This document shows, piece after piece, positions 6,901-21,697 of a DNA stretch of 58,248 bases (within the stretch, counting starts at the first letter, position 1; every line of letters begins with the position of its first letter). The stretch comes from an uncultured Verrucomicrobiales bacterium (GTDB lineage: Bacteria; Verrucomicrobiota; Verrucomicrobiia; Verrucomicrobiales; Akkermansiaceae): contig CAMQZC010000018.1 in the NCBI GenBank assembly GCA_947039485.1, positions 1 to 58,248 of the forward strand, given 5' to 3'. The notes beneath the pieces were generated by a model. That model searched no databases. It was given only the letters and a program-made list of their open reading frames with translations, and was not told where the DNA came from. Position numbers and translations under genes: made by a program.

Positions 6901-7705
6901 CCGCATGGACACCCGCTGGGTCGCCCTCACCAACGAAAGCGGAGCTGGCCTCCTCGTCGCAGCAGCGGCAGGAGACGAGTTCAACTTCTCAGCACTGCCC
7001 TTTAGCGCCGACACCATCCTGCGCGCCTCCCACCCCCAAGACCTCACGCCCAGCGATAGCACCCACCTCAGCATCGACGCGCTCACACTTGGACTCGGCG
7101 GCGCATCCTGTGGACCCGTCCCCATGGCACGTGACATCCCCCGTGCCGTCCCAATCAAGTTCAGCATCAGCCTGCGCCCCCTCGCCGCAGGAGCAGACAA
7201 AGCAGCAATCGGCAGCCGCGCGCTCCCAGCCCAAGCCCAAGGCAAACTCTGGGAACTGAGCAGCAATGAGCAGCAAAAGGAAAGCATCAGCATCGAATTC
7301 GTCAGCTCCGAACTCCCCAACACAGGAGCCGGAGAAAACATGATCGACGGCAAAGTAGAGAGCTACTGGCACAGCATGAAAGGCGTCACCCTCGCCAGCT
7401 ACCCTCATGACGTACGCCTCAAGCTCGGCAAGCCCCGCACGATCGCAGGCCTCAGCTACCAAGCAGCTGACATCAGCGACGCCCAGATCAAGGACTACGC
7501 CATCTACATCAGCCAAGATGGAGAGAACTGGGGAGAGCCCATCCACAAAGGCAGCCTCACCGCAGGAGCTGGCAAACAGCAAATCCTGCTCACAACCCCT
7601 GTTGCCGCAAACTACCTGCGCCTCGTCGGGCTGAGCTCACAAACGGGAGGCGACTCAGCCTCCATCAGTGAACTCCAAGTCATCGAGGAAGAAGAGCAGA
7701 AATAA
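3923..7705 (+). CDS. Secreted GH2 family beta-galactosidase with C-terminal F5/8 (CBM32-like) module
   Basis: A 1260-residue LacZ-type glycoside hydrolase family 2 enzyme with a Sec signal peptide (MNLFKVITTAVAMSASFALA). In order: sugar-binding jelly roll (about 60-220), immunoglobulin-like domain, TIM barrel with acid/base Glu501 in WSYGNEAGPG and nucleophile Glu562 in WYVSEYAH, and a beta-galactosidase small-chain domain (about 800-1080, PLANDQWIMNTW). It ends with a discoidin/F5-8-type module (about 1130-1255, NMIDGKVESYWHS and YAIYISQDGENW). The export signal and binding module suggest cleavage of terminal galactose from host or dietary glycans outside the cytoplasm. It stands alone, strongly C-ending in codon use, with a terminator just after it. 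Confidence 0.95.
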   Translation: MNLFKVITTAVAMSASFALAQDAPYTPNPDWEAPENLHQNRETARAFFVPYASNEEAFKGHRDDSSFVIPLNGDWKFHWSPQPSARPLDFAKPSFDVSKWDTIDVPSNWQMRGYGIPVYSNQRYTIVRNWPYVMTPPRNADEKNYSTPKAEPNAVGSYRRDIDIPTDWDGREVFIQFDGVDSFFYLFVNGEKVGFSKDSRTAAIFNISPYLKPGKNVIAAEVYRYSDGTYLECQDMWRLSGIFRDVFLYSTPKLQVRDFFVHTNFPQKADGMSDYSSSQLKVDVDLRNLAKISTDYKISAKLYNAAKQEVASLSPAAGSLEPGKESQVSLKADIKNPALWSAEKPNLYRLIISLENKAGESTEIVSKHIGFRDIKLLNGRFLVNGMPVKLKGVNRHESSHANGHSVTEAECREEILLMKRGNINHIRNSHYPQPAYFYDLCDEYGIYVCDEANIESHGYYYGKESLSHPKEWEAQTLWRNINMVEQSKNHPSIVIWSYGNEAGPGKNFEVVQDWVKQRDPSRLTQYERNNSLADLRSNQYPSVDWSRDTAAKKLDKPWYVSEYAHILCNSMGNLQDYWDAFDSSDSIIGGGIWEWIYQSYDQEVTLPDGSKVKRQAYGGNYGDYPNDGIFCIKGVIYSDRSPSPVYAEVRKAQQNVAFSISKNSGKNGVELSIKNKHLFTNLDEYDISWTLSQDGSKIISSGTIAAAAAPLQSVTVNIPASELLKSPLAAGYDYFLSVNAKLKSDTNWAKKGHVIATEQFELNNLKIAATAPAISGGKLSVGLQANALCIKGKNFSVNIDKATAGLSNYKVGEQELIGSTPSLLINAFRAPLANDQWIMNTWLQSGLRQLEHSASPLQVEELPSGAVRVRSMVRSQGTHKERLDHYVSGDGQLVETGELAEGDFHFNTQLIYTILPDGSINIQSKIVSNNSGLILPKLGFALQLPKQYNRTTWYGRGEGENYPDRKASAPMGIFERSVNAMVEKYPKPMEMGNRMDTRWVALTNESGAGLLVAAAAGDEFNFSALPFSADTILRASHPQDLTPSDSTHLSIDALTLGLGGASCGPVPMARDIPRAVPIKFSISLRPLAAGADKAAIGSRALPAQAQGKLWELSSNEQQKESISIEFVSSELPNTGAGENMIDGKVESYWHSMKGVTLASYPHDVRLKLGKPRTIAGLSYQAADISDAQIKDYAIYISQDGENWGEPIHKGSLTAGAGKQQILLTTPVAANYLRLVGLSSQTGGDSASISELQVIEEEEQK

Positions 7706-7743
7706 GCCACTAAGCTAACAACAAGCTAAGGAAACAATCAAAC

Positions 7744-7775
7744 AAGACCCCGCCGTCCAAGGATAGCGGGGTCTT
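7744..7775 (+). terminator. Rho-independent terminator after the beta-galactosidase gene
   Basis: Ten-base perfect stem AAGACCCCGC (7744-7753) and GCGGGGTCTT (7766-7775) with a 12-base loop, 38 bases after the stop codon, followed by CTTGTG. It can work for the plus-strand gene. Confidence 0.8.
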
Positions 7776-7870
7776 CTTGTGCCCCAGAAGCGCCCTGAGC
7801 AGCCCCTGAGCAACGCAATAATAGTAGTGCCCACCCAATAAGCACAGAGCCGCACAGAGCCCCCCAACGA

Positions 7871-8112
7871 CCGGGTGCAGGGAGCGAGCTCCCTGCTGGG
7901 TGTCGGGCAAAGCCTGACTGGGAGTGGGCAAAACCCACAAAGAAAAGCTGTGGCTGTGCCACAGCAAGGCTGAGGAACCCACAAGGAAAACCGAAACAAC
8001 AAGCGCCTTGGTAGAAAGAGCGTCACCAAGCGCAGTTCCTCAGCCGCCATCCCTCCCCCTGCGCCGCAGGCGCACAAACATCTAGAGCTGATAGTCGCGA
8101 TAGCGCCCCCAG
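7871..8112. repeat. Dispersed palindrome-rich element, copy 1
   Basis: A gene-free stretch made of short back-to-back palindromes such as GGGAGCGAGCTCCC and TCGGGCAAAGCCTGA, followed by a 68-base segment (8043-8110) that recurs at 17806-17872 with roughly 85% identity by eye. No convincing coding frame is present. It lies between the beta-galactosidase terminator and the end of the CRISPR array, so it may mark the edge of the acquired CRISPR locus. Confidence 0.65.
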
Positions 8113-8130
8113 CCTGCGCCCATGCAAAAA

Positions 8131-8156
8131 GCCCTACCGCGCAAGCGTGATAGGGC
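8131..8156 (-). terminator. Terminator at the distal end of the CRISPR array
   Basis: Inverted repeat GCCCTA (8131-8136) and TAGGGC (8151-8156), with extra pairing inside. On the minus strand it is followed by CTTTTTG, giving a Rho-independent terminator for transcripts leaving the array leftward. This supports minus-strand transcription of the array. Confidence 0.65.
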
Positions 8157-8242
8157 ATAGGGAAAGAAAAAACTGGAGAGTTCTGCATGATGTAGAATTG
8201 ATTTGATGAGGTGTAATGCAAGTTGCTAAAGTTGCTGTTTGT

Positions 8243-8993
8243 TAGTCGTTACTTAAATAGACATTCAGCGTTTGCGACCGCGAGCGTATCCTTGTCGGTG
8301 CTGTCGCCACAGTGCCGCCATCAATTACATAGACATTCAGCGTTTGCGACTTGGCTAACAAACTGCACGTGGAGCCTAGCAAGTTCCGCCATCAATTACA
8401 TAGACATTCAGCGTTTGCGACCTCCCATGGCTCACCCATCAAGTACTCGCCTTGACTCCGCCATCAATTACATAGACATTCAGCGTTTGCGACATTTGGT
8501 GTCTCAGGTAGGAAGAATAAAATACGCACCGCCATCAATTACATAGACATTCAGCGTTTGCGACTTAGAGGGGAACCTTAGCTGAGACTAAATGCTGATC
8601 CGCCATCAATTACATAGACATTCAGCGTTTGCGACCCCATTGGGCAGGCAGAAGCAGGCCTCTAGTGCTTCCGCCATCAATTACATAGACATTCAGCGTT
8701 TGCGACAAAAGCGAAGAATACTACGCTTCGCCCGAATGTAAGACCGCCATCAATTACATAGACATTCAGCGTTTGCGACCCCGCGACGATTATGGTGCGT
8801 GGAGCTACAATTTTCCGCCATCAATTACATAGACATTCAGCGTTTGCGACCCTCTCCAGATTTGATCCGTCACCGCCAGCTGGTGCCGCCATCAATTACA
8901 TAGACATTCAGCGTTTGCGACTAGCCTTGCTGTTGTCCCTCACGCGCTAGACATCAACCGCCATCAATTACATAGACATTCAGCGTTTGCGAC
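8243..8993 (-). CRISPR. Type V-B CRISPR array, 11 repeats and 10 spacers
   Basis: Ten identical 36-base repeats begin (plus-strand coordinates) at 8315, 8386, 8458, 8529, 8600, 8671, 8744, 8815, 8886 and 8958. An eleventh, degenerate repeat occupies 8243-8278. Spacers are 35-37 bases and all different. In minus orientation the repeat starts GTCGCAAACGCTG and ends ATTGATGGCGG; the GTCG start, 36-base length and TGGC near the 3' end resemble known Cas12b repeats. The repeat at the left end has lost its last 12 or so bases, as leader-distal repeats do, so the leader is on the right, beside cas2. I saw no spacer matching elsewhere in this window. Confidence 0.97.
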
Positions 8994-9149
8994 GGCGCGT
9001 GCCTTAACTAGCTTATTAGCAGTAAGAACGAATGACATCTGCGAGTGCTTGTAAATACTTAGCCTTGAAAAGGGGTGGGTATTTACGAAAACTGTATATA
9101 ACTCACTGCATCTCTGATGCCGCGAGCGTGCTCTAGGGATTTGAGCGTC
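8994..9149 (-). promoter_or_regulatory. Probable CRISPR leader
   Basis: Gene-free sequence between the first intact repeat (ending 8993) and the putative tracrRNA. It is AT-rich near 9050-9105 (TATATA at about 9096) and sits at the end where new spacers should be added, judged from the decayed repeat at the other end. A small hairpin GCATC-TCT-GATGC lies at 9109-9121. No exact promoter could be fixed. Confidence 0.5.
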
Positions 9150-9268
9150 ATCGTTGCTCTCGCTATGTCAAATAATCGAGTTACCCCGAAGGCGGAGGTG
9201 TAACGTGAGGTGAACTAAGTCACGTTCAAGATACAATATTGTATCGAGGATGTCAATGTAGAATTGCG
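9150..9268 (-). ncRNA. Putative tracrRNA for Cas12b
   Basis: Between cas2 and the array the minus strand contains pieces of the reverse-complemented repeat in the right order. These are CCGCC at 9195-9191 and then, after a 14-base insertion, ATTA, GACAT, AGCG and GCAAC between 9176 and 9153, about 22 of 36 repeat positions. Upstream are two strong hairpins, the 16-base palindrome GATACAATATTGTATC (9230-9245) and a 7-bp stem AACGTGA/TCACGTT (9202-9208 with 9220-9226). Another antirepeat-like piece, CAATTCTACATTGACAT, lies at 9266-9250. Hairpins first, split antirepeat last, is the known Cas12b tracrRNA layout. The exact ends are not known. Confidence 0.6.
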
Positions 9269-9280
9269 CATTTATTTGAA

Positions 9281-9574
9281 TTAAATAATAGTAATGCGAG
9301 AGCGCTTCATATAAGGGTAGCCCCTAGCCTCAATACTAAAGGGCGTAGACTCATTGTCTAATCCTAAATCAACATAAATCACCTGATCATCATAGTGGTG
9401 AATCACTGAATCAAGCTCAGTCTGAAGCTGAGCTAAAAGCAAGTCATCAAGCGTAGCTTCAAAGACCGAGTATTGAATACGTGAGCCATACGCCTCGCAA
9501 ATACGAGCCGTACGACGGAGTCGCTTAGGGTCGGCAATATCGTAGCATATCAAGTATCGACGTCGTCTACTCAT
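9281..9574 (-). CDS. cas2: CRISPR-associated endonuclease Cas2
   Basis: A 97-residue ferredoxin-fold protein with the Cas2 start RYLICYDIADPKRLRRTARI, where the Asp of YDI is the conserved metal-site residue, followed by GSRIQYSVFEATLD and QVIYVDLG. With Cas1 it forms the spacer integration complex. It follows the cas4-cas1 stop by 6 bases and is the last protein gene before the tracrRNA region and array. Confidence 0.95.
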   Translation of the reverse strand: MSRRRRYLICYDIADPKRLRRTARICEAYGSRIQYSVFEATLDDLLLAQLQTELDSVIHHYDDQVIYVDLGLDNESTPFSIEARGYPYMKRSRITII

Positions 9575-9580
9575 CCTAAG

Positions 9581-11260
9581 TTATCTTGTTGTAAAACCAC
9601 GGTAAATAGAGACATCACCACGGCACAGCCTCCAAAATTGCCTCATCTGCACCTCCATCATACGTCTGTAGCTCATGCGATACCCAAAGGCTGGGTGACT
9701 AACCTCCGTATCCATACGCCTAGTCCATGCTCTCCAAAACTGGCGCCGAGCAGAGTCCCTCATCAGACAGCCACGAGTCGTGTAGATAAAATCATCCTCA
9801 GCTATCTCCCCTCGATTAATAAGAGATAAGACCACAGAATCCACAATAAGAGGGCGAAACTCCTCCATCATATCGAGAGCAAGCGCAGGTCGTCCATAAC
9901 GCGGTGAGTGGAAAAATCCCAAATATGGGTCAAGCCCAACACTATAAGCAATACCAGTAATCTCTTTACTCAAAATAGAATACCCTAAAGACAGCATGGC
10001 GTTAACTGGGTCTTTGGGGGGTCTTCGGTTGCGCCCCTTTAGATGAAACGCAGGCAAATCAGACTTAATCATCGATGTAAAGTGAGCGAAGTAAATGGCA
10101 GCTGCAGCCCCCTCAACCCCTCTCAGGCTGTCGAGATGCTTCTGATTTGAGCAAGAATCGCGTAAAAGGGCTAATTGCTTCAAGTGTTGAGCCTCTGCTT
10201 GACCATTACGCATGAGGTTGACGCGTTGGTTGTGTATTTTGCAGCGGATGAGTTCAGAGGCCAGTTTGAGGCGAGCCGTTGGATTTTCCCAGAGATGAAC
10301 TTGTCCGATACGCGCATCTACACCCGTTGAAGGTAGCCCATGGGATAAGCCAAGAAATCTACCAGCGGGACTAAAATAAGAAATAGATACGTCTTGCTCC
10401 ATCATTGTATGCATAGCCTGAGCGCTCACCTGAACAGCTCCGTAGAGGTAGAGACTTTGCAATTGTTTGATGGGGTGCTTACTAATTTCCTCCCCTTTGA
10501 TCAAGACCCGAATATTGCCCCCGCGGAGAGTGACATAGGCCTGATTATTCTGCACGACAAGAATCTCACCTTGATCATGCTGCGGCATGGGAGGACGTAG
10601 AGCCTCTTGTAGTTTGCAATTGGAGTCATCAGTCCAGTACTTGCTCTCATAGGGCAAGCAAATCGGGTATGCTGAGCAATAAATACAGCGGCCAGACCCG
10701 TCTAATGGTTTGGGACATCGAGCCGATGAAGCAAGGCGTAGAGCCTCAGCAATCATAGATTGACAATTATCAAGTAGCTCAGATGTCAGAGCTACCTCAA
10801 CATGCTTCTTAGCCTGAGCATAGTAAATGCCTGCAGACGTGACATCATGACCTGCCTCACGCAGCAGCAAGGTGTAGGCTGCCATCTGAATGGCATCATA
10901 ACTCTTTGCGCAGTACTGCCCCTGATTATCTCGCCAAGGACTACCTTTTTTGTAATCTACAACGCGCAATTTACTATCATCCGCCACCTCAAGGAGGTCA
11001 ACCACGCCTACCAAATGGAGGAGCTCTGAGGATAGCTCGATAGAGCGAAGCTTGCCCCCCAACGAACTCAGCGCATCCTCACGGCTAAGGCTAGGCTCAT
11101 CCACCCTTTTATGGGTGGATGAGCCACGGACAGTATCGGCGTTCTCAACGAACACCCCCTCGACCCATTGCAAATAGAACAGGCGAGGGCAGTAAGCGTA
11201 ATTATGCAGCCGTCTCACAGGGAGAAGAGGCTGGTCACTATCTGTATTTACTTGATCCAT
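9581..11260 (-). CDS. cas4-cas1: Cas4-Cas1 fusion protein
   Basis: A 559-residue fusion. The N-terminal Cas4 part (about 1-210) has Cys24 in YCPRLFYLQ and the C-terminal cluster Cys192, Cys195 and Cys201 (RCIYCSAYPIC) for an iron-sulfur centre. Its RecB-type nuclease residues are Asp88, Asp102 and Lys104 (VVDYKKG) and Gln125. The Cas1 part (about 220-559) contains LRGGNIRVLIKG, the catalytic Glu in LRGVEGAAAAIYF, and the catalytic His and acidic residues in GFFHSPRYGRPALALDMMEEF. Cas4 trims and PAM-selects prespacers that Cas1-Cas2 integrates. Such fusions are characteristic of type V-B (and some type I-U) loci. The start overlaps the end of cas12b by 13 bases. Confidence 0.95.
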   Translation of the reverse strand: MDQVNTDSDQPLLPVRRLHNYAYCPRLFYLQWVEGVFVENADTVRGSSTHKRVDEPSLSREDALSSLGGKLRSIELSSELLHLVGVVDLLEVADDSKLRVVDYKKGSPWRDNQGQYCAKSYDAIQMAAYTLLLREAGHDVTSAGIYYAQAKKHVEVALTSELLDNCQSMIAEALRLASSARCPKPLDGSGRCIYCSAYPICLPYESKYWTDDSNCKLQEALRPPMPQHDQGEILVVQNNQAYVTLRGGNIRVLIKGEEISKHPIKQLQSLYLYGAVQVSAQAMHTMMEQDVSISYFSPAGRFLGLSHGLPSTGVDARIGQVHLWENPTARLKLASELIRCKIHNQRVNLMRNGQAEAQHLKQLALLRDSCSNQKHLDSLRGVEGAAAAIYFAHFTSMIKSDLPAFHLKGRNRRPPKDPVNAMLSLGYSILSKEITGIAYSVGLDPYLGFFHSPRYGRPALALDMMEEFRPLIVDSVVLSLINRGEIAEDDFIYTTRGCLMRDSARRQFWRAWTRRMDTEVSHPAFGYRMSYRRMMEVQMRQFWRLCRGDVSIYRGFTTR

Positions 11261-14200
11261 CTCTGCTCTATATCCATAGCCTCGGCAAGGAAGCCTGCCT
11301 TCTCAAGCCTCTGCTTGTTGAGTAAATGACAGTAATGCCAACGATTGTGTTTTAGCTGCCCCCAGAACTCCTTACCTAAGCAGAAGCTTATGCTCCGAGT
11401 CTCGGATGAGAGACTAGCAAAACTCCGCAACCCTGAGAGCTCCGCACTGTAGAATGCGGAGATATTGCCCTCCTTAATCTCTAGATAAGCGGCATCATCC
11501 TTGCTGATGTCGGTTTGGAGGCTATAGGTCTTCTTGAGCGATTTCTCCCGCTTGTTTTCGGCTCGGGTTTGGATACCCGTACTCTTTTTAACCAAACGTA
11601 TGCGGTGCAGGAGGTGGTAGGCATCTGGTGCTGCTAGTGCTCGCCAAGCAATATTGCAAGCTGCATTGATATCAGCATTGCGCAGCGTGACCCCCCGCTT
11701 GCTAGACGAGATGAAGTATTCGCCACTATTGCTGGGATGGGGGGCATAGAGAGCAAAGCCTGTAGGAAGCTTTTCACCATTTTCTTGGAGTTTTACAAGG
11801 AGTTGGGCATAGTAAGCTTTTTGGATGAGGAAAAGCTCGGCTTCCTCAAGCTTGTGGAGTGATTTGTTAGCTAGAGCGGCGCATTTTTTGATCTCCTTCT
11901 CATAGAGCGCTTTAACTGCAACCGCGCGGAAACCAGGCTTTGAGCTCAAGCTGTCGAACTTGGAGCTATACATCGGCTGTGCAAAGATTACAGGGATGCC
12001 GTAGGTCTCAGTCAGAATCTGCGTCACCTTGGTGACTATTTGTCGGTGAGACCACTGCATGAGCTGTGAATTCTCGCTCCGCGAGTGGTCAACACTGGTC
12101 AGGTAGCGGCTTAGATTCTCCATCACCACCATGTCCACAGGCTTAATGCCAGACATGGGCTCATACTCGCCATGGTAAATATCCTTGCCATCGCGAGAGC
12201 TTGCCCGCGATGAGGGGATGAGCTTGAGCCCGAGTGCTTGGGCTGCAATGTGGTGAGCAATCTCATGGACTCTGTTGTCGCGCATGTTATTAATCTTCTC
12301 GCGCAGCTCAACACATGGGTCGGTGACCTTGAGCCCTGCCGCGGCACGGCCGTTTTGAGGCTTTGTGCCCGGTGTGACAGAGAGCAGCCTATTGAGTGAT
12401 TGTAAAGTGCGGCGCAGCTTCTCAAGCAATTCAATCCGACCCATGCTCAGCCCACCCGCATCGTAGCATTTTCGACTCTCCTTGATTGGCGAATCAACCA
12501 CAGTCATGCGACCACTGCCGACCCATCCATCCAAGCTCTCGGGAATCCAAGCCCAGCGGCCGCGTTTACGAGGTAATGCCAGCGTCATTGTTTGCTCTGC
12601 CAGCTTGGGTAAGTTAGATTGCATCTCTTGACATATGTCAAGAAGTAGGGTTTGAACTCGGTGGATGTTTTTGTCGGAAATTGCGGTCAATAGAGGCTGA
12701 ACATATGGATATTGCTGAGCCTGATTTCCATAGCTCAGATAAGCTTCCATCAGCGGCATTGTTGCGTCTTGCTTGTTCTCATCCATGATGCGGTATGCCC
12801 AAGAGAGCATGCTGCTGTAACGGGAGAGGTAGCGATGGAATTTCTCCACGAGAGCACGGTTGAGTTCCAAGATGTTGAGATGTTTCGCAACGGAGGCATC
12901 ATTAAGCCATGTGAGCTCAGACCCAAATGCGCAGCTGAGTGCTTTGGCTTCTTCTATCTCGCGAGAGTCTGCCTGCCTGATGCCTGATGCTCTGCCGAGC
13001 TTTGGCATCGTGCTTTTACCCTCACCATCTAGTCGGATGATACCATCTTTGATAGGGCTGCCATACCAAGTAAGTTGATCAATTGTACCTAAGCGTTGAG
13101 ATGGCTTTGTAGGTTGGCTGCTAGCCTCATGGGCTGAGACAGCAATGCGAGACCATGCGGCAGCATAGCGCACACCGAGGTCAATACCAAGGACGGTGAA
13201 GCCGTTTTGTTGTGTAGTCTTGTTATCCCACCATGGGCTTGGCTTGGCGCTGTAGGTGCCTGGCCAATGTAGGGAGGAGAGGTCTTTAGCAACTCCATTG
13301 TGCTGACTAGCCCAGAGCTCAGCCTTGCCGAGCTTCTTGTGCAAGGGCTCGACATCAATAGAGGCCGCAAAGTTCAACCATACATGGATGCTTCCGTGGC
13401 TAGTGCTCTTTATCAAGAGAGAAACAGCGGCAGCACGTTCTAACGTTGCATATGCCTCTGCCTCATCGCCCAGCAGAGAGCGCATCATCGGTTGGAGACA
13501 GGGGGCGCCCACGCGCCCAATCTCAAGACGGTCTCGCTCTGCTCTAGGCGCGCTAAAGATAATCTCAGCCTTTTGCGCCTCCCAACGCCCGCGGTTGTTG
13601 AGCACAACGAGCATCATGTCTAACTGATCGTTTTTTGTCTTGCCGTAGGCGCTAGCCGCAGAGCCTCCTAGATTTGAAATATCAGAGAACATCATGAGGC
13701 GAGCTGAGTAGTTGGGCTCCGCGGCAGTGATGCGTACAGGCTCTGCAAGGCTAGCTGAGTCTTGCTTCATTGATTGATACTGACAGTAATCAATCAATAT
13801 CCGTTTTGATTGCCCCGCTGCCTGACGTTGGCTCAATGCCTCCTCATTCTCCGCCCAAATGGCGTGATAGTCAGGATGAGCTAGAGCCTCGAAGAGTGGG
13901 GCTGAGCCAAATTTATCTTGCAATTCAGCTTGCGCCTCGCGAGTGGCAGCTACGAGGGATTCTTGATTATTGAGGCCTTCTGCAATTAGGTTTTTCCATT
14001 TCTCCATGACGACACCTATGCCCTTGATCGCGCGTCGGCTAATGCTATACTCCTCGGCCTCAGTATCTTTATCAAGCCCAGAACAGAGCTGGGCTGATAA
14101 TTGATTGAGGAGGGTGAATCGTTCATCACCAGCAAAGATGGGGAGGCGAGAGGACTCTTCGTCATCATCTCCCTCTACACTACTCTGCATGTTACCCTTG

Positions 14201-15396
14201 CCGCTCTCCATGAAGTTAATTTTTGATTCCAGCTGCGCACGCTCGTCTCTTCGCTCTTTCATTTTGAGCTCAAAGCCATGGACTGCTTTGAGTGCCTCTT
14301 TGAAGGCTGCAACATCCCATTCTTTAGAATACATGTTAGCATCACCGCCTGTTTCCCAGCACGGAAGCGCGCTATAGCCGAGGTAGACATAGCCGCGTTC
14401 CCCGCGGCAGAGTATAATTGGATCATTATCAAGGGAGTGTAAGCCTGTTGTGTCACTTACTGTCTTAGCTTTTTTCGGCTTGCCTAATCGGATGCGAAGT
14501 AAATTAGCAGAAAGCGTGTTGGGGAAGTAGATGAAGAAAATAGCTGCCCATTTAAGCGGCTTTGCTGCCTTGCTGTTTCTTGCTAGAGGAGTGGATAAAT
14601 CCATAGACTCAAGTCTAGCTCGCGCATCCGATATCTCGGCATAGAAGTCATCGTGGGAACTGTAATGCTCATTCACAAACTCAAGGATACGGGCGTCACT
14701 TTGGTTTGTAACGCTGTTTTTTATTTCGTCCAGTGCTTCTATGATATCAGTAGTTTTCTCACTAACCTCTTTGTACTTCCCTGTCTGAGTTTTGATGCCA
14801 GCCCAGCTTAAATCCATGCCGTTGCTGAAATCCTCAAGCTCTTCTTGGCTGAAATCGCTGTTGAGTAGCTCCATGAGTTGTCGCTTTTTCTCGTCTGCCT
14901 GTTTTTGCTTGTCGCTGAAGAGAAATGTGCCTTTAAAGCTAGAGTCGCAGAGCTTAGGGAGTAGTTCGCGTCCTTTTTGTTGGATAGCTCCCGTTCCTTT
15001 TTCTGTCTCAAGCATGATAAGCTCCAGCACGTGGGGTAGATGCTCAGGGCACGCACATCCATCAAAGAGCGCGGAGACGGCCTCGTCAAAGCTCGGGTTA
15101 CGAAGGGTAAGAGTTCGCGCGATTGATTGTTGTAGTGTTGTGGCGCTGGGGTTGCCCTTGGGGTGCTCTGTCCAGATTGAGCGGATGCGCTCGCTAAAGC
15201 GCGAGCCAATGCTGTCGTCTGCTTCAGACTGGTAGCTTGCCATCCCTGCCATGGCAAGGATGTGGTAGTTCACGGCGTCTTGGTAGAGGCTGTGAGTTTG
15301 CATAAGTGCATCAGATACAGAGATGTTGATTTCCTTGTTGACGAATGCTGAGTTTTTTAGGTTGATGAGACCTTGGTAGATACGTGATATTGACAT
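11248..15396 (-). CDS. cas12b: Cas12b (C2c1) RNA-guided DNA endonuclease, large form
   Basis: A 1382-residue effector. The split RuvC nuclease is recognisable: RuvC-I TVLGIDLGVRYAAAWS with Asp739, RuvC-II MVVMENLSRY with Glu1093 followed by the Cas12b hallmark SENSQLMQWSHRQIV, and RuvC-III NADINAACNIAWRAL with Asp1242. The segment PMYSSKFDSLSSKPGFRAVAV after RuvC-II is also typical of Cas12b. Known family members are about 1100-1300 residues with catalytic Asp near residue 570, so this one carries about 170 additional residues before RuvC-I and a tail of 140 after RuvC-III. All three catalytic acids are intact, so it should cut double-stranded DNA guided by crRNA and tracrRNA. First gene of the cas operon. 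Confidence 0.93.
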   Translation of the reverse strand: MSISRIYQGLINLKNSAFVNKEINISVSDALMQTHSLYQDAVNYHILAMAGMASYQSEADDSIGSRFSERIRSIWTEHPKGNPSATTLQQSIARTLTLRNPSFDEAVSALFDGCACPEHLPHVLELIMLETEKGTGAIQQKGRELLPKLCDSSFKGTFLFSDKQKQADEKKRQLMELLNSDFSQEELEDFSNGMDLSWAGIKTQTGKYKEVSEKTTDIIEALDEIKNSVTNQSDARILEFVNEHYSSHDDFYAEISDARARLESMDLSTPLARNSKAAKPLKWAAIFFIYFPNTLSANLLRIRLGKPKKAKTVSDTTGLHSLDNDPIILCRGERGYVYLGYSALPCWETGGDANMYSKEWDVAAFKEALKAVHGFELKMKERRDERAQLESKINFMESGKGNMQSSVEGDDDEESSRLPIFAGDERFTLLNQLSAQLCSGLDKDTEAEEYSISRRAIKGIGVVMEKWKNLIAEGLNNQESLVAATREAQAELQDKFGSAPLFEALAHPDYHAIWAENEEALSQRQAAGQSKRILIDYCQYQSMKQDSASLAEPVRITAAEPNYSARLMMFSDISNLGGSAASAYGKTKNDQLDMMLVVLNNRGRWEAQKAEIIFSAPRAERDRLEIGRVGAPCLQPMMRSLLGDEAEAYATLERAAAVSLLIKSTSHGSIHVWLNFAASIDVEPLHKKLGKAELWASQHNGVAKDLSSLHWPGTYSAKPSPWWDNKTTQQNGFTVLGIDLGVRYAAAWSRIAVSAHEASSQPTKPSQRLGTIDQLTWYGSPIKDGIIRLDGEGKSTMPKLGRASGIRQADSREIEEAKALSCAFGSELTWLNDASVAKHLNILELNRALVEKFHRYLSRYSSMLSWAYRIMDENKQDATMPLMEAYLSYGNQAQQYPYVQPLLTAISDKNIHRVQTLLLDICQEMQSNLPKLAEQTMTLALPRKRGRWAWIPESLDGWVGSGRMTVVDSPIKESRKCYDAGGLSMGRIELLEKLRRTLQSLNRLLSVTPGTKPQNGRAAAGLKVTDPCVELREKINNMRDNRVHEIAHHIAAQALGLKLIPSSRASSRDGKDIYHGEYEPMSGIKPVDMVVMENLSRYLTSVDHSRSENSQLMQWSHRQIVTKVTQILTETYGIPVIFAQPMYSSKFDSLSSKPGFRAVAVKALYEKEIKKCAALANKSLHKLEEAELFLIQKAYYAQLLVKLQENGEKLPTGFALYAPHPSNSGEYFISSSKRGVTLRNADINAACNIAWRALAAPDAYHLLHRIRLVKKSTGIQTRAENKREKSLKKTYSLQTDISKDDAAYLEIKEGNISAFYSAELSGLRSFASLSSETRSISFCLGKEFWGQLKHNRWHYCHLLNKQRLEKAGFLAEAMDIEQRWIK

Positions 15397-15775
15397 ATGG
15401 TTGTTGTGTTTTTTAGGGTGCTTAAGCTACTAGTTGTGAGTGGCTTGTAATAGATTATAATGTCGTTCATTTATTTCGCCTCACTTATTGAGATATAAGC
15501 GCTCTTTCGATGGCGAGAGAAGAGTGATATGTGGACAGAGCCATTGAGTAGAAGGTATATAGATGCCTTCTATCTCATAAGCTGTATTTAAGCATATTGC
15601 GTGTGGCTTGTCAAAATAAAATGTCCTGTTGGTACAATATAATGAATAAAATAGAGCCAAGCAAACAAGGAACAAGCCCCGCAATTCCAACAACTGCGAG
15701 GCCTCTTTGTCGCTACAGAGTAGCAAAAGAACAATAAGCTAAAATAAGCTAAAGAAGAGGAAAGAAGAGGAAAGA
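15397..15775. other. Intergenic region between cas12b and cimA
   Basis: Holds the upstream region of cas12b and the downstream region of cimA, both read leftward. A TATAAT on the minus strand (15459-15454) is a possible -10 for the cas operon, but its -35 is weak. Two short open frames here (around 15481-15818) have no family features, no ribosome site and overlap the cimA terminator, so they are not called. Confidence 0.4.
15671..15694 (-). terminator. Terminator after cimA
   Basis: On the minus strand GCCTCGCA pairs with TGCGGGGC (one G.U-type or mismatched position) around a GTTGTTGGAAT loop, then TTGTTCCTTGTTTG. It lies about 80-100 bases after the cimA stop. Confidence 0.5.
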
Positions 15776-17365
15776 CTAGCAACGAGGAGCCACGCCCTTG
15801 AGCATTAATCCAAAGCAAATAGCATCAATCAAGGCCAGAAAACTCGCCTCATCAATATTCGCACTCACACCCACCGTATCCCAACTCTGAGTACCATCTG
15901 ACGTGGTGATATGCACCCTCGTCTTAGCTCCCGTCGCATGCTTCGCATCCAAAATACGAACCTTGTAATCAACAAGCTTAAAACAATCAATCAGAGGATA
16001 CACATCAGCCAAGGCCTTGCGAATCGCACGATCCAAGGCCTCAACTGGTCCATTGCCATCAGACACCGTATGCAACTCCACATTGGCTACCCGCATTTTA
16101 ATAGACGACTCCGCCACAACCGCACCAGCCCCACGGTGCAAACTATCACTAATCATGCGAAAGCCCAGTAGCTCAAAATAACTAGGCTTTTGCCCCGAGA
16201 CCTCCATGAGCATCAGCTCAAAAGAAGCATCTGCCGCCTCGAAACTATAGCCTTCCCACTCCCTCTGCTTCAAGCATAATAGAGCCTCGCGCAGCTGCCC
16301 CTCTTGATACGTTGCCCCTAAGCGCAATTTGGCAAGCTTGTTCTTAAAACTCGCCAGCCCTGCTTGATCGCTCAGCAGCACACGCCGCGTATTACCCACA
16401 AGCTCTGGCTCGATATGCTCATACGTTGCCGAGTGCTTCATCACGCCACTTGCATGAACGCCCCCCTTGTGTGTAAACGCGCTCCGCCCCACAAAAGGAG
16501 CATCACCATACAATTTTTTATTAGCTATCTCGCTGACATGCTGTGCCGCCTGAGCCAAACAACTCAAGCGATTCCCCAGCACACGATAGCCCAACTTGAG
16601 CTCAAGATTCGCAATCACTGAGCACAGGTTCGCATTACCACAGCGCTCCCCATAACCATTGATTGTACCCTGTACCTGATACACCCCAGCGGCCACAGCT
16701 GCGATGCTGTTTGCCACCGCCATATCGGTATCATTGTGAGCATGGATACCCAGCACCGCATCAGGCAAAAGCAAGCGCACAGCACTAGTAATCTGATCAA
16801 TCTCGTGATAAAGAGAGCCGCCATTTGTATCGCAAAGCACAATGCGCTCTGCGCCCGCCATATGAGCTGCGCGGAGAGCCTCGATAGCATAAGAGGCATT
16901 TGCCTTGTACCCATCAAAAAAATGCTCTGCATCAAAAAAGACGCGCTTGCCCGCTGCCTTTAGATAACGCACACTATCCGCAATCATTGCCAGATTCTCC
17001 TCAAGAGATACGCCCAGCGCATGCGTCACCTGAAAATCCCATGACTTGCCAAAAATCGTGACAATCGGAGTCTGCGCAGCCAACAGCTCACTCAATACCT
17101 TGTCATCCTCAGGCCGACAATCAGCGCGCTTGGTGCAGCCAAAAGCACAAATTTGAGCATTCTTCATAGGGATTGAGCGCAAGAGCTCAAAGACCTCCAC
17201 GTCCTTGGGATTCGCCCCTGGCCAGCCAGCTTCAATATAATCCACCCCCAAATCATCTAAAATTCGAATAATATTCAGCTTATCTTGCGCAGAAAAAGCA
17301 ATTCCCTCCGACTGCGCTCCATCACGCAACGTGGTATCATAAATTTCAATTATGCTTGTCTTCAT
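15776..17365 (-). CDS. cimA: (R)-citramalate synthase
   Basis: Condenses pyruvate with acetyl-CoA to citramalate, the entry to threonine-independent isoleucine synthesis. The N-terminus EIYDTTLRDGAQSEGIAFS is the DRE-TIM metallolyase signature; GVDYIEAGWPGANPKDVEVF, rather than the leuA or nifV forms, points to CimA. The C-terminal LeuA-type allosteric domain (about 390-529) is present and would allow isoleucine feedback. Length 529 fits. The strand composition of this gene matches the vertically inherited left flank, unlike the island that begins just upstream of it. Confidence 0.9.
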   Translation of the reverse strand: MKTSIIEIYDTTLRDGAQSEGIAFSAQDKLNIIRILDDLGVDYIEAGWPGANPKDVEVFELLRSIPMKNAQICAFGCTKRADCRPEDDKVLSELLAAQTPIVTIFGKSWDFQVTHALGVSLEENLAMIADSVRYLKAAGKRVFFDAEHFFDGYKANASYAIEALRAAHMAGAERIVLCDTNGGSLYHEIDQITSAVRLLLPDAVLGIHAHNDTDMAVANSIAAVAAGVYQVQGTINGYGERCGNANLCSVIANLELKLGYRVLGNRLSCLAQAAQHVSEIANKKLYGDAPFVGRSAFTHKGGVHASGVMKHSATYEHIEPELVGNTRRVLLSDQAGLASFKNKLAKLRLGATYQEGQLREALLCLKQREWEGYSFEAADASFELMLMEVSGQKPSYFELLGFRMISDSLHRGAGAVVAESSIKMRVANVELHTVSDGNGPVEALDRAIRKALADVYPLIDCFKLVDYKVRILDAKHATGAKTRVHITTSDGTQSWDTVGVSANIDEASFLALIDAICFGLMLKGVAPRC

Positions 17366-17997: not shown

Positions 17998-20394
17998 TTA
18001 GTAGTAGCTAGTTGTTATATAGTATGATGTAGTATATGAACCTCCATCCATTGATTTGGTGCCTGCGTATTTTCTTACGGATCCAACGGCCACGGATGCG
18101 ACGATGCGGTATGTGTCATTGGGTAATGAAATAGAACTCGTGGTATGCGGTTGCAGTACTAATTTTTTACTCGCAGACCCGCTATACATGATAACCAATA
18201 CATATTCTGTATTATTAGATACACGGATAGATGTTGTTGTAGACCCATAAGATGAGCCTACTTTGCTCATCGTTGGCATCGCTTCGTAATCACCTTTGAG
18301 AGCCTCGTCAACTTCAAGGTCAATTATTGATTTTTCCGCTTCTTCTACCCATACCCCATTTGGGTATTTGTCTAAATACTTTTTGAAATGACTAACGGCG
18401 CCCAAGGCCGTTGCTGTTTCCCAAGCTTTTGAGTCGCTGCCCCAAAGCCTTTCTTCTCGTTCGGTTTCAGCAAGCTCTTTTCTTCGTTTTTCCGCGGCAA
18501 TTGCTTCTTTTAGCATAGCCGATCCATTTTTGCAAAAGTTAAGGGGCACTGTTTCCAAGAAATCTCTCCACTCTGCTATGCTGCTTAGATCACAAGCTTT
18601 TTCGTATAGTTTATTAGATTTATTTCGAGATATCGCAAAAGCCTTTTTGCCTTGTGATGTTTTCGGGAATGCTAAATGAAATTCGTAAATTTGTTTTATT
18701 GATCCATCTGATTTGATGTTTTTTAATTGATTGGAGAGTAATTTGTTTTTATATTTACTTGTTGGGTATTTGCGGAGGAATACCTGACAAGAAATTAAGC
18801 TAGTATCAGCTCCTTGAATCTTTTGGTAATCTCTGCTCTCTTTCATCAATTCGTTATAAATGAATAATCCAGCAAAAAACATGACGCCGATGATGAATAA
18901 GGAACGATGCCTTTTCGGTTGGCGCTTTTGGGCGCTTTGGTCTAGTTCTTTCATCGCCGCTGATTTGGCAATGTACGTGAAGTCGCTCGTCGCTTGCTTC
19001 AATGTGGCCTTTAATTCGTGATCTATATATAATTGCTCTATTTCCGCGATGACAAGTAGAGCATTCATGGCAAATGCTGCTACCTCTTTATAGTTGGGTT
19101 GTTTTTCTTCTTTGTTTAAGCTTCTTGCAATTTTATTATAGGCGGATATGGCTGTATACTTAGACGCGGTTGCATATTCGGGGCTAGATGAACCTGCTGT
19201 ATTTGAAATTTGGCTGAGTATGGGTTTAGCGGCTTTTAAAAATGATATCGTACTACTCAATGCATTAGTACTTTGATTTAAGTCATCAGTCAAGGAGTTC
19301 AATTGAGAAATATGCGCTCCTATACTATTTTTAACAAGAGGCCTTTGAATTAAATTAAAGTTGTGATTGCAATGTTGTTGAGCTGCTGCGCCCCTAGCAA
19401 GATGCCTAGCTTTATCTAAGTGATTAACTAGTTTTATTCTTGATGTTTTATCTTGAGCCCCACCTTTATTGTGGTAGTCGGTACCAATAGCAACAATTAG
19501 CAATGCTATCTTATCTGCTATTTCCATGTATTGCAGGGAGTCACAGCCGGCACTCATTTCAAGTAGATTTAAATTGGAACGGGTCTCATTTTGCAGTTTG
19601 TCTATGAGCTCTAAGCTGGAATTAATATGAGCTTGCCCCTCGTTTCTATATTGGGTTAATATCTCCTCTAGCTGGTCGATGAACGTGACGCTATACTCCT
19701 TCATGTATGCTTCTTTTGCCTCAAAGTCGAGTTCGGCTAGGCAGCTTAAATAACTCAGGTCGTTATAATTTAATTCATAGGCGATTGTACGGATTGTTCG
19801 CAAATGAATCAATTGTAGTTGTATTTGTGTTAATTCTGGATGGCCCCCAGCAATGATGTCTTTGAGAGATTTCCAATATGGGCTTTGTAGTAAATCTATT
19901 TTTAACGCAAGGGCAGTTTTAAATACAGCAAAGTCGGAGCTCGATTTCCAAAGAAGTAAATTTGATAGGTTCTGATATGAAGGAAAGCTACGCTGATCAA
20001 CACCGTGGTGCCTTGCTATGACTCCAGACCAAATACTAATCGCTTGCTCGATATTCCCTGATTCCAGCCGTTTAAGCGCTACTGAATCCGAAGAGGAGTA
20101 TGCATTGATAAACCAAAAAGAGCCATGTTCAATGCGGCTTTTTTCTGAGCTCAATTCAGCTTGAGCTTTTTCTATGTTGTCAGAATCTCTTTTAGACCAG
20201 TGGCCTAAATAAGCAAAAGAGTAATCATCTGTTATCTCAATGTTGGCATCTATGGATTTAGAGAGTCGATTTAAGCTCATCGTGAGCTCTCTTGGCTTGC
20301 AGTCAGCAAGCACCCCAATGACGCGATACGGGTTCTGGTCAAATATATTGATGGCGGCTGCTTCTTTTTGTTGAGTCTCGAGAGTTGCGTTCAT
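17998..20394 (-). CDS. Large single-TM protein of unknown function
   Basis: 798 residues, family not recognised. The N-terminus (FDQNPYRVIGVLADCKPRELTMSLNRL, about residues 18-50) resembles the J-like opening seen in some uncharacterised bacterial proteins. Residues about 50-490 are helical and TPR-like in texture. One membrane segment lies near residue 500 (SLFIIGVMFFAGLFIYNEL), followed by more helical repeats. A C-terminal beta-rich domain (about 715-798) ends in a Ser/Tyr-rich tail TTSYYITTSYY. Codon and base use are clearly AT-richer than the flanks, consistent with transfer. It stands alone, convergent with the lpd remnant. Confidence 0.7.
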   Translation of the reverse strand: MNATLETQQKEAAAINIFDQNPYRVIGVLADCKPRELTMSLNRLSKSIDANIEITDDYSFAYLGHWSKRDSDNIEKAQAELSSEKSRIEHGSFWFINAYSSSDSVALKRLESGNIEQAISIWSGVIARHHGVDQRSFPSYQNLSNLLLWKSSSDFAVFKTALALKIDLLQSPYWKSLKDIIAGGHPELTQIQLQLIHLRTIRTIAYELNYNDLSYLSCLAELDFEAKEAYMKEYSVTFIDQLEEILTQYRNEGQAHINSSLELIDKLQNETRSNLNLLEMSAGCDSLQYMEIADKIALLIVAIGTDYHNKGGAQDKTSRIKLVNHLDKARHLARGAAAQQHCNHNFNLIQRPLVKNSIGAHISQLNSLTDDLNQSTNALSSTISFLKAAKPILSQISNTAGSSSPEYATASKYTAISAYNKIARSLNKEEKQPNYKEVAAFAMNALLVIAEIEQLYIDHELKATLKQATSDFTYIAKSAAMKELDQSAQKRQPKRHRSLFIIGVMFFAGLFIYNELMKESRDYQKIQGADTSLISCQVFLRKYPTSKYKNKLLSNQLKNIKSDGSIKQIYEFHLAFPKTSQGKKAFAISRNKSNKLYEKACDLSSIAEWRDFLETVPLNFCKNGSAMLKEAIAAEKRRKELAETEREERLWGSDSKAWETATALGAVSHFKKYLDKYPNGVWVEEAEKSIIDLEVDEALKGDYEAMPTMSKVGSSYGSTTTSIRVSNNTEYVLVIMYSGSASKKLVLQPHTTSSISLPNDTYRIVASVAVGSVRKYAGTKSMDGGSYTTSYYITTSYY

Positions 20395-20602: not shown

Positions 20603-21697
20603 TTACTCAAAGCGCGCCGCATTCTCCAACAACGCATCAGCGTAGTCGTAGATGTCATCCAATGACTGGATGGGGTGACGGGTCTCTTTTTTGTCTTCTC
20701 CGATAATACCAATATATTTCTGCTTGGCATTAAAGTGTAGGCGGCAAAGAGGCTTGCGGTTGTTATCATCTAAAAGAATACCGAAATAGCTTTGGGTGTC
20801 GCGCTGCATGATTCTGGATACATCAAAGCGCTTGCGGAGGATGGCGCGCACAATATGGAAGCCATCGAGCTCTTCTTGCGTGGTATCCACGCGTGATACT
20901 TCGCCTTCGGGTTCTACTGTGGCTTGGCTTGCGGGTGCATTCATCATCACGATAGGTGCAGGAGCATCGTCATCGTCACCAATAGCTGATTTGAGGCGTG
21001 CATTGACGCTATCGCTGAGGAACTGCTTGAGTGCTTTTTGTGTGAGTGCTGAGAACTGGGCTTTGATTTTTGGCGTCTGTATTCCAGTGTAGACCAGCGA
21101 TGTTAAAAAGCGTACTAGTTCTTCACCGGGATTGAGGAACTGAGCGGCAAGTGCTTTTTTGAGTAGGCTCAAGTATTTCAGCTCTCCTGCTGCGTCAACG
21201 ACAGAATCAATGTTGAACGATGTTTTTGTCAATTTCTTAACCTCTGGTACGATGCTCTTGTCCAAGTCGGCTAAGTTGAGGATGAGGAATGGTAATTCAT
21301 CCATGACGTTGGGCTTGTCTAAATCCGTGAAGAATTCGTAGATCATGCCATTTGTTAAGATGCCAATGCGTGCCTTCGATACGGAAAAGTAGCGGAATAA
21401 TTGACTTGCGTGTTTAATCGAAAGAGGTTCGCCAAATTTTTTGCACTCAATGAGAATCTGAACTTCGCCATCCTTTAGAATTGCATAGTCTACCTTTTCA
21501 TTCCTTTTCCCAGGAGTATCGGCAGTGTATTCTGGGACTACTTCGCTAGGGTCAAAAACATCATAACCCAACACTTGGTGTAAGAAGGGCATGATGAGAG
21601 CATTTTTTGTGGCTTCTTCTGTGCTGAGCGTTGCGGATACTTGTGCCGTTTTTCGTATCAAGTTGTGTAATCGTTCTGTAAAATCAATCATTTCCAT
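20603..21697 (-). CDS. Orphan type I restriction HsdR N-terminal-type nuclease protein
   Basis: 364 residues. The N-terminal half (about 20-160) is the HsdR_N-like PD-(D/E)XK domain: STEEATKNALIMPFLHQVLGYDV, then EVVPEYTADTPGKRNEKVDYAI with the catalytic Asp, and VQILIECKK with the Glu-x-Lys pair. FRYFSVSKARIGILTNGMIYEFFTD is the usual C-terminal strand of that domain. There is no helicase, specificity or methylase gene beside it. The C-terminal half (about 250-364) has LCRLHFNAKQKYIGII, similar to domains found in stand-alone versions. Likely a defence or regulatory nuclease; the exact role is unknown. Part of the AT-rich island. Confidence 0.8.
   Translation of the reverse strand: MEMIDFTERLHNLIRKTAQVSATLSTEEATKNALIMPFLHQVLGYDVFDPSEVVPEYTADTPGKRNEKVDYAILKDGEVQILIECKKFGEPLSIKHASQLFRYFSVSKARIGILTNGMIYEFFTDLDKPNVMDELPFLILNLADLDKSIVPEVKKLTKTSFNIDSVVDAAGELKYLSLLKKALAAQFLNPGEELVRFLTSLVYTGIQTPKIKAQFSALTQKALKQFLSDSVNARLKSAIGDDDDAPAPIVMMNAPASQATVEPEGEVSRVDTTQEELDGFHIVRAILRKRFDVSRIMQRDTQSYFGILLDDNNRKPLCRLHFNAKQKYIGIIGEDKKETRHPIQSLDDIYDYADALLENAARFE

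Follow-up and report, generated by a model that had tools for sequence, protein, structure and literature searches.

The window analysed here is a stretch of 58,248 nucleotides (contig CAMQZC010000018.1, assembly GCA_947039485.1) from an uncultured member of the Akkermansiaceae, probably an Akkermansia species, and it carries a locus of clustered regularly interspaced short palindromic repeats (CRISPR) with its CRISPR-associated (cas) genes. Sequence comparison supports its assignment to type V-B, and the parts expected of such a locus are present (Table 1). On the minus strand the genes follow one another in the order cas12b, cas4-cas1 (which overlaps cas12b by 13 nt) and cas2, and a gap of 287 nt separates cas2 from the array, whose repeats (ten exact copies and a degenerate end copy at 8243-8278 with 7 mismatches) are far beyond chance. 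As the degenerate repeat is the one farthest from cas2, the leader was taken to be on the cas2 side, which would place the array, the candidate trans-activating CRISPR RNA (tracrRNA) and the cas genes all on the minus strand. A first-pass annotation had listed the effector, a Cas4-Cas1 fusion, Cas2 and the array on one strand, and all of these were recovered, the strand of array and tracrRNA candidate by way of the leader.

Table 1. Features of the type V-B locus in the window, with the evidence for each.
Feature	Position	Strand	Basis
cas12b, effector nuclease, 1,382 aa	11248..15396	-	Open reading frame, family models, RuvC acids
Main REC1 expansion block, cas12b residues 199-360 (162 residues)	14317..14802	-	Profile alignment to A. 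dauci
Acidic low-confidence loop, cas12b residues 404-415	14152..14187	-	Predicted local distance difference test (pLDDT) under 50
cas4-cas1 fusion, 559 aa, spacer acquisition	9581..11260	-	NF049935, 7mi4 match
cas2, 97 aa	9281..9574	-	PF09827, 66 bits; PADLOC Cas2g, 84 bits
Promoter-like site of tracrRNA (TTGACA, 17 nt, TATCTT)	9228..9256	-	10/12 consensus bases
Predicted tracrRNA, ends approximate	~9120..9223	-	Homologous element in relatives ~200 nt upstream of array
tracrRNA stem-loop	9206-9179	-	Relatives' stem-loop with CCGCC
tracrRNA CCGCC (second repeat:antirepeat pairing)	9191..9195	-	Complement of repeat 3' end GGCGG
Antirepeat, predicted interrupted-helix pairing with repeat	9156..9180	-	Aligned with relatives' antirepeats
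Leader	8994..9120	-	CTCGC at 9041-9045, 52 nt before first repeat
CRISPR array of 11 repeats (36 nt each) and 10 spacers (35-37 nt each)	8243..8993	-	

The product of cas12b scores 541 bits against the NCBIfam Cas12b model NF033949 (cut-off 150) and 414.5 bits against the Cas12b model of PADLOC, where the best model of any other subtype reaches 19.8 bits; in Pfam, the C2c1 RuvC-like and first helical domains are matched. The active-site acids given by the first-pass annotation, Asp739 (codon 13180-13182), Glu1093 (12118-12120) and Asp1242 (11671-11673), are intact in one split RuvC domain and are aligned in all 82 rows of a Cas12b alignment. Their counterparts in AacCas12b, with positions taken from the alignment, are D570, E848 and D977. 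An identity as V-B3 (the inactivated Cas12b3) was rejected, since these acids are not substituted. A structure model of residues 1-1200 (pLDDT 84.4; predicted template-modelling score, pTM, 0.78) adopts, over that range, the Cas12b fold and matches AacCas12b (5u30, 5wqe) and BthC2c1 (5wti), with the scores of Cas12o and Cas12X close behind. The adjoining Cas4-Cas1 protein scores 608 bits against NF049935, cas4g_cas1g (cut-off 560), and matches the solved Cas4/Cas1 fusion 7mi4, of 559 residues, end to end (365 bits); passages of PMC5704561 report such fusions for types I-U and V-B. A Cas4-Cas1 fusion and Cas2 beside the effector, together with 36-nt repeats and spacers of about 35 nt, agree with membership of type V-B. 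As for the terminator that had also been listed, the 11 terminator-like sites found are not clearly above chance (7.0 ± 2.8 in shuffles).

The effector had further been singled out as oversized relative to Cas12b proteins of 1100-1300 residues, and as novel. Its relatives do not support the reading as an unusually large outlier. In a protein search that scored 7,990 candidates, 46 of the 47 other homologues are 1,328-1,399 residues long and one has 1,267, while a scan of genome contigs yielded 35 loci (32 from Verrucomicrobiota or groups within it, two from Lentisphaerae/Lentisphaeria, one from Planctomycetota) whose cas12b genes, where uncut by contig ends, encode 1,340 to 1,485 residues. Matches are present in 11 of 76 genomes of the genus, which we infer to be Akkermansia (ten full-length, the window's own included, and one a 57-residue piece), and in 15 of 387 genomes of a phylum sample, 12 of them above the cut-off. 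ChCas12b, which has solved structures in the PDB (9kln-9klq), reaches 1,496 residues. Hence, because its relatives are equally large and ChCas12b is larger, the window's Cas12b is not set apart by size; related bacteria from the gut and the environment have large Cas12b proteins too. One of the relatives, P0010, already bears the NCBI name 'type V CRISPR-associated protein Cas12b [Akkermansia sp.]'.

The relationships among these proteins were examined in a quick, midpoint-rooted maximum-likelihood tree. Its 82 rows are Cas12b relatives alone, other Cas12 subtypes being absent, and several of its branches are long. There the window's protein and P0008 form a pair (support 100), basal in a clade of 52 rows in which every named member is Akkermansia or Akkermansiaceae. 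This clade is nested in one of 78 rows from Verrucomicrobiota, Lentisphaerota and Planctomycetota, which stands apart from P0048, L037, L038 and Alicyclobacillus dauci with support 99. L037 belongs to the ChCas12b lineage (970 bits to 9kln). Membership of the window in that lineage was considered and rejected on the same support, within the limits of a quick tree with long branches, as it falls outside the L037/L038/P0048 branch; phmmer gave no match between the window's Cas12b and L037 at 1e-5.

The extra residues can be located by alignment. Compared with AacCas12b (1,129 residues according to passages of PMC6255809), the window's protein has, by positions read from the alignment, 169 more residues before RuvC-I (Asp739 against Asp570), in line with the roughly 170 noted earlier, 76 more from RuvC-I to RuvC-II, 20 more to RuvC-III and 12 fewer thereafter. 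Against the N-terminal piece of A. dauci Cas12b the offset grows from 21 residues by residue 134 and 50 by W198 to 144 by D361, 161 by R455 and 163 by G497 (profile alignment with probability 97.4, much of it of low confidence, counted by eye); the A. dauci gene itself, on a plasmid (L055, 5233-8597), is annotated as two overlapping reading frames. The REC1 block between W198 and D361 has about 94 more residues than A. dauci Cas12b and is modelled mostly as helices, with a mean pLDDT of 84-96 per ten residues that falls to 63 at 311-320. Across the 78 rows of the clade (two of them truncated at contig ends) this block, from 198 to 361, spans 144-179 residues, and D325 and R331 are present throughout; the DP..RG.RG..P.W stretch, taken as a strict pattern, is matched in 51 of all 82 rows. 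In this block the ChCas12b lineage, with three rows, has 212-282 residues and a looser RG..G stretch. Since the length of the region thus varies across Cas12b, we interpret the block as part of an enlarged REC1 and not as a new domain. In Pfam, residues 1-357 and 741-1082 have no family above the cut-off, the best sub-threshold matches being unrelated (16 and 17 bits). Of the added recognition-lobe domains suggested earlier, the extra residues remain, yet they are read as more helices within REC1. As judged by alignment, the large size is that of an expanded REC1 and a longer stretch from RuvC-I to RuvC-II, common to the Verrucomicrobiota-centred clade. Most likely the extra REC1 helices add no activity but brace the guide or the guide-target duplex.

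For the RNA component, no Rfam family covers a tracrRNA in the window's locus and duplex energy alone is uninformative there, so the tracrRNA was placed via relatives. These have in common, upstream of the array, a promoter-like stretch (TTGAC upstream of the tracrRNA, read by eye), a stem-loop bearing CCGCC and an antirepeat; the antirepeat-bearing region of the first-pass annotation is real, although its placement needed the relatives. The promoter-like site in the window is the joint best of 10 consensus matches in 7700-15800; shuffled sequence gives 8.8 ± 3.1 such matches, so their total does not exceed chance. A complement of the repeat's last five bases occurs within 420 nt upstream in all 27 array loci considered (28 were examined and L013 was dropped for having too few repeats); a copy lies at -189 to -268 in 26 of them, and ten have more than one copy. 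The pair is GGCGG/CCGCC in 25 loci, and both differing loci keep the pairing, with GACGG/CCGTC in L026 and GGCAC/GTGCC in A. dauci. Furthermore, in the 18 of the 28 loci used for duplex energies, which are related to one another, matched repeat-antirepeat pairs average -33.3 kcal/mol, and not one of 5,000 random pairings is as low. Of these 18 duplexes that of the window is the weakest (-19.6 kcal/mol), and 53 of 2,000 shuffled repeats reach its energy, which argues against a strong claim from this locus alone. By comparison with relatives and by the kept pairing, a predicted tracrRNA with an antirepeat near the array is nonetheless present as a sequence element. For other V-B loci, passages of PMC6342934 describe putative tracrRNAs between cas12b and the array and T-rich 5' protospacer-adjacent motifs (PAMs).

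The leader has a motif at a nearly fixed distance. CTCG lies 51-54 nt before the first repeat in all 22 leaders of the set on which it was defined (window, L002-L008, L010-L012, L014, L016, L018, L020, L023, L025, L027-L029, L032 and L055, which is A. dauci), and CTCGC is found in 16 of them, compared with 2.3 on average and 6 at most in shuffled leaders. This set includes close kin (L014/L025; L011/L012/L029). In the remaining six loci, taken as a second set, CTCG is present in three, the chance being 0.016 per leader; the misses are L017 (a run of N and an upstream repeat remnant), L013 (two repeats in view) and L042 (no evident excuse). CTCG is possibly a signal for spacer insertion. A 16-nt leader word at 9033-9048 (plus strand) recurs in antisense, without a mismatch, within the antirepeat of five Akkermansia relatives (L002-L005, L010), and in sense its predicted pairing with the window's antirepeat is as good as that of the repeat (-17.2 kcal/mol each).

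Two relatives bear on how effectors and guides combine. L014 (12158-14744) and L025 (12266-14851) have cas4-cas1 (95%), cas2 (99%), tracrRNA, leader and array in common, and their 86% DNA identity begins 6 nt past the cas12b stop; between the two Cas12b proteins, by contrast, identity is 40%. An adaptation side so alike beside a diverged effector suggests that the effector alone was exchanged and the guide scaffold retained.

Altogether, this V-B locus, whose host is probably an Akkermansia species, very probably provides immunity through a dual-RNA-guided nuclease, which would cut PAM-flanked foreign DNA with a single RuvC site. As their families suggest, Cas4-Cas1 and Cas2 would add spacers at the leader end; the array would be transcribed on the minus strand, and the tracrRNA would pair with the repeat at two places, through the antirepeat and through CCGCC with GGCGG. 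By analogy with AaCas12b, for which passages of PMC6255809 describe staggered cuts at targets with a 5'-TTN PAM, Cas12b with its guide would then open DNA beside a 5' T-rich PAM and make a staggered cut.

Other explanations were weighed against such a working nuclease. The effector might be kept but used without cutting, or the locus might be inactive: no protospacer was found for the tested spacers (five of the ten in the IMG/VR scan), the window's repeat-antirepeat duplex is weak, and nuclease-inactive V-B variants exist, as passages of PMC12669027 describe for Cas12b3. With the RuvC triad intact, the genes open, ten repeats exact and both Cas4-Cas1 and Cas2 present, however, we regard this as very unlikely. 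Less credible still, and already disfavoured, is a new subtype beside V-B. The Cas12b models of NCBIfam and PADLOC score far above all others, the profile alignment to the ChCas12b lineage extends over 1,149 columns at 100% probability, and repeat, tracrRNA and Cas4-Cas1 architecture are those of V-B; such a subtype would be favoured by the separate clade in the Cas12b tree and by A. dauci Cas12b, which shares 29.6% identity over just 27% of the window's protein.

The enlarged REC1 invites a further alternative, namely that it is a true added domain with an activity or partner of its own, and the clade a functionally different V-B variant. The number of residues gained over A. dauci Cas12b, their mostly helical nature at high model confidence, and the block length and two invariant residues of the 78 clade rows speak for it, but residues 1-357 yield no Pfam family above the cut-off, and the longer block with a loosely similar RG..G stretch in the ChCas12b lineage shows that length is variable across Cas12b. 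We therefore consider an added domain improbable, if less so than a silent locus, and retain the nuclease with an expanded REC1. A broader proposal, which we put forward only tentatively and would sooner doubt than accept, is that the Verrucomicrobiota-centred clade is a separate V-B variant in which the enlarged REC1, with a conserved stretch of its own (DP..L.RG.RGYVY.GFTALP.WE), has altered the way guide and target are gripped, and spacer insertion is directed by a leader box at a constant 52 nt from the first repeat.

Elsewhere in the window, an open reading frame of 798 residues at 17998-20394 (minus strand) has 39.9% G+C, against 52.9% in the window, and matches nothing in Pfam or PADLOC at 1e-5; a type I restriction R N-terminal domain is encoded by the following one (20603-21697). 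Contig 14 of the same genome carries a second CRISPR-Cas system (L069, 17222-18205), which its Cas1c and Cas7/Csd2 assign to type I-C and which includes Cas4.

Among the open-licence papers listed we found no description of the group of large Cas12b proteins that includes the window's, several of the searches having used other terms; Cas12b with Akkermansia turned up two reviews whose titles and abstracts deal with other matters, and searches on ChCas12b or its PDB codes and on Cas12b with Hydrogenedentes gave nothing relevant. The Cas12b of Verrucomicrobiaceae UBA2429, the organism of L017, has been named among Cas12b orthologues in patents. Passages of a 2025 classification (PMC12669027) give type V as comparatively prominent in Verrucomicrobiota and three other phyla, at 8-13% of CRISPR-cas loci, and passages of Strecker et al. 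(PMC6342934) report 27 Cas12b members scattered among bacteria. With the window, the large Cas12b proteins, many of which come from gut samples, gain a deep-branching member. Should the clade prove active, it could supply Cas12b enzymes whose recognition lobe is different. The leader motif raises the testable question of what marks the insertion site in V-B arrays, and the apparent effector exchange that of how freely Cas12b proteins share guide RNAs.

In summary, the window's locus resembles known V-B systems to differing degrees. With the Alicyclobacillus and Bacillus proteins (AacCas12b, BthC2c1) it shares the fold and the RuvC acids, and with A. dauci a 36-nt repeat that starts with GTCG and pairs through its 3' end with a tracrRNA lying between cas2 and the array. 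Its Cas4-Cas1 protein is an end-to-end homologue of 7mi4, but accompanies a V-B effector. ChCas12b and its lineage (L037, L038, P0048) are alike in being large, in the long region before RuvC-I and in the active-site acids; they differ in lying on another branch and in matching the clade's REC1 stretch only loosely. Closest are the Cas12b proteins of Akkermansia metagenome-assembled genomes and of other Verrucomicrobiota, Lentisphaerota and Planctomycetota (L002-L036, P0002-P0047), which fall in the same clade and size range and, where an array is present, mostly have repeats ending in GGCGG and CCGCC in the tracrRNA, as in the window. The closest 43 are 36-43% identical to the window's Cas12b, which forms with P0008 the deepest pair of the clade around Akkermansia.
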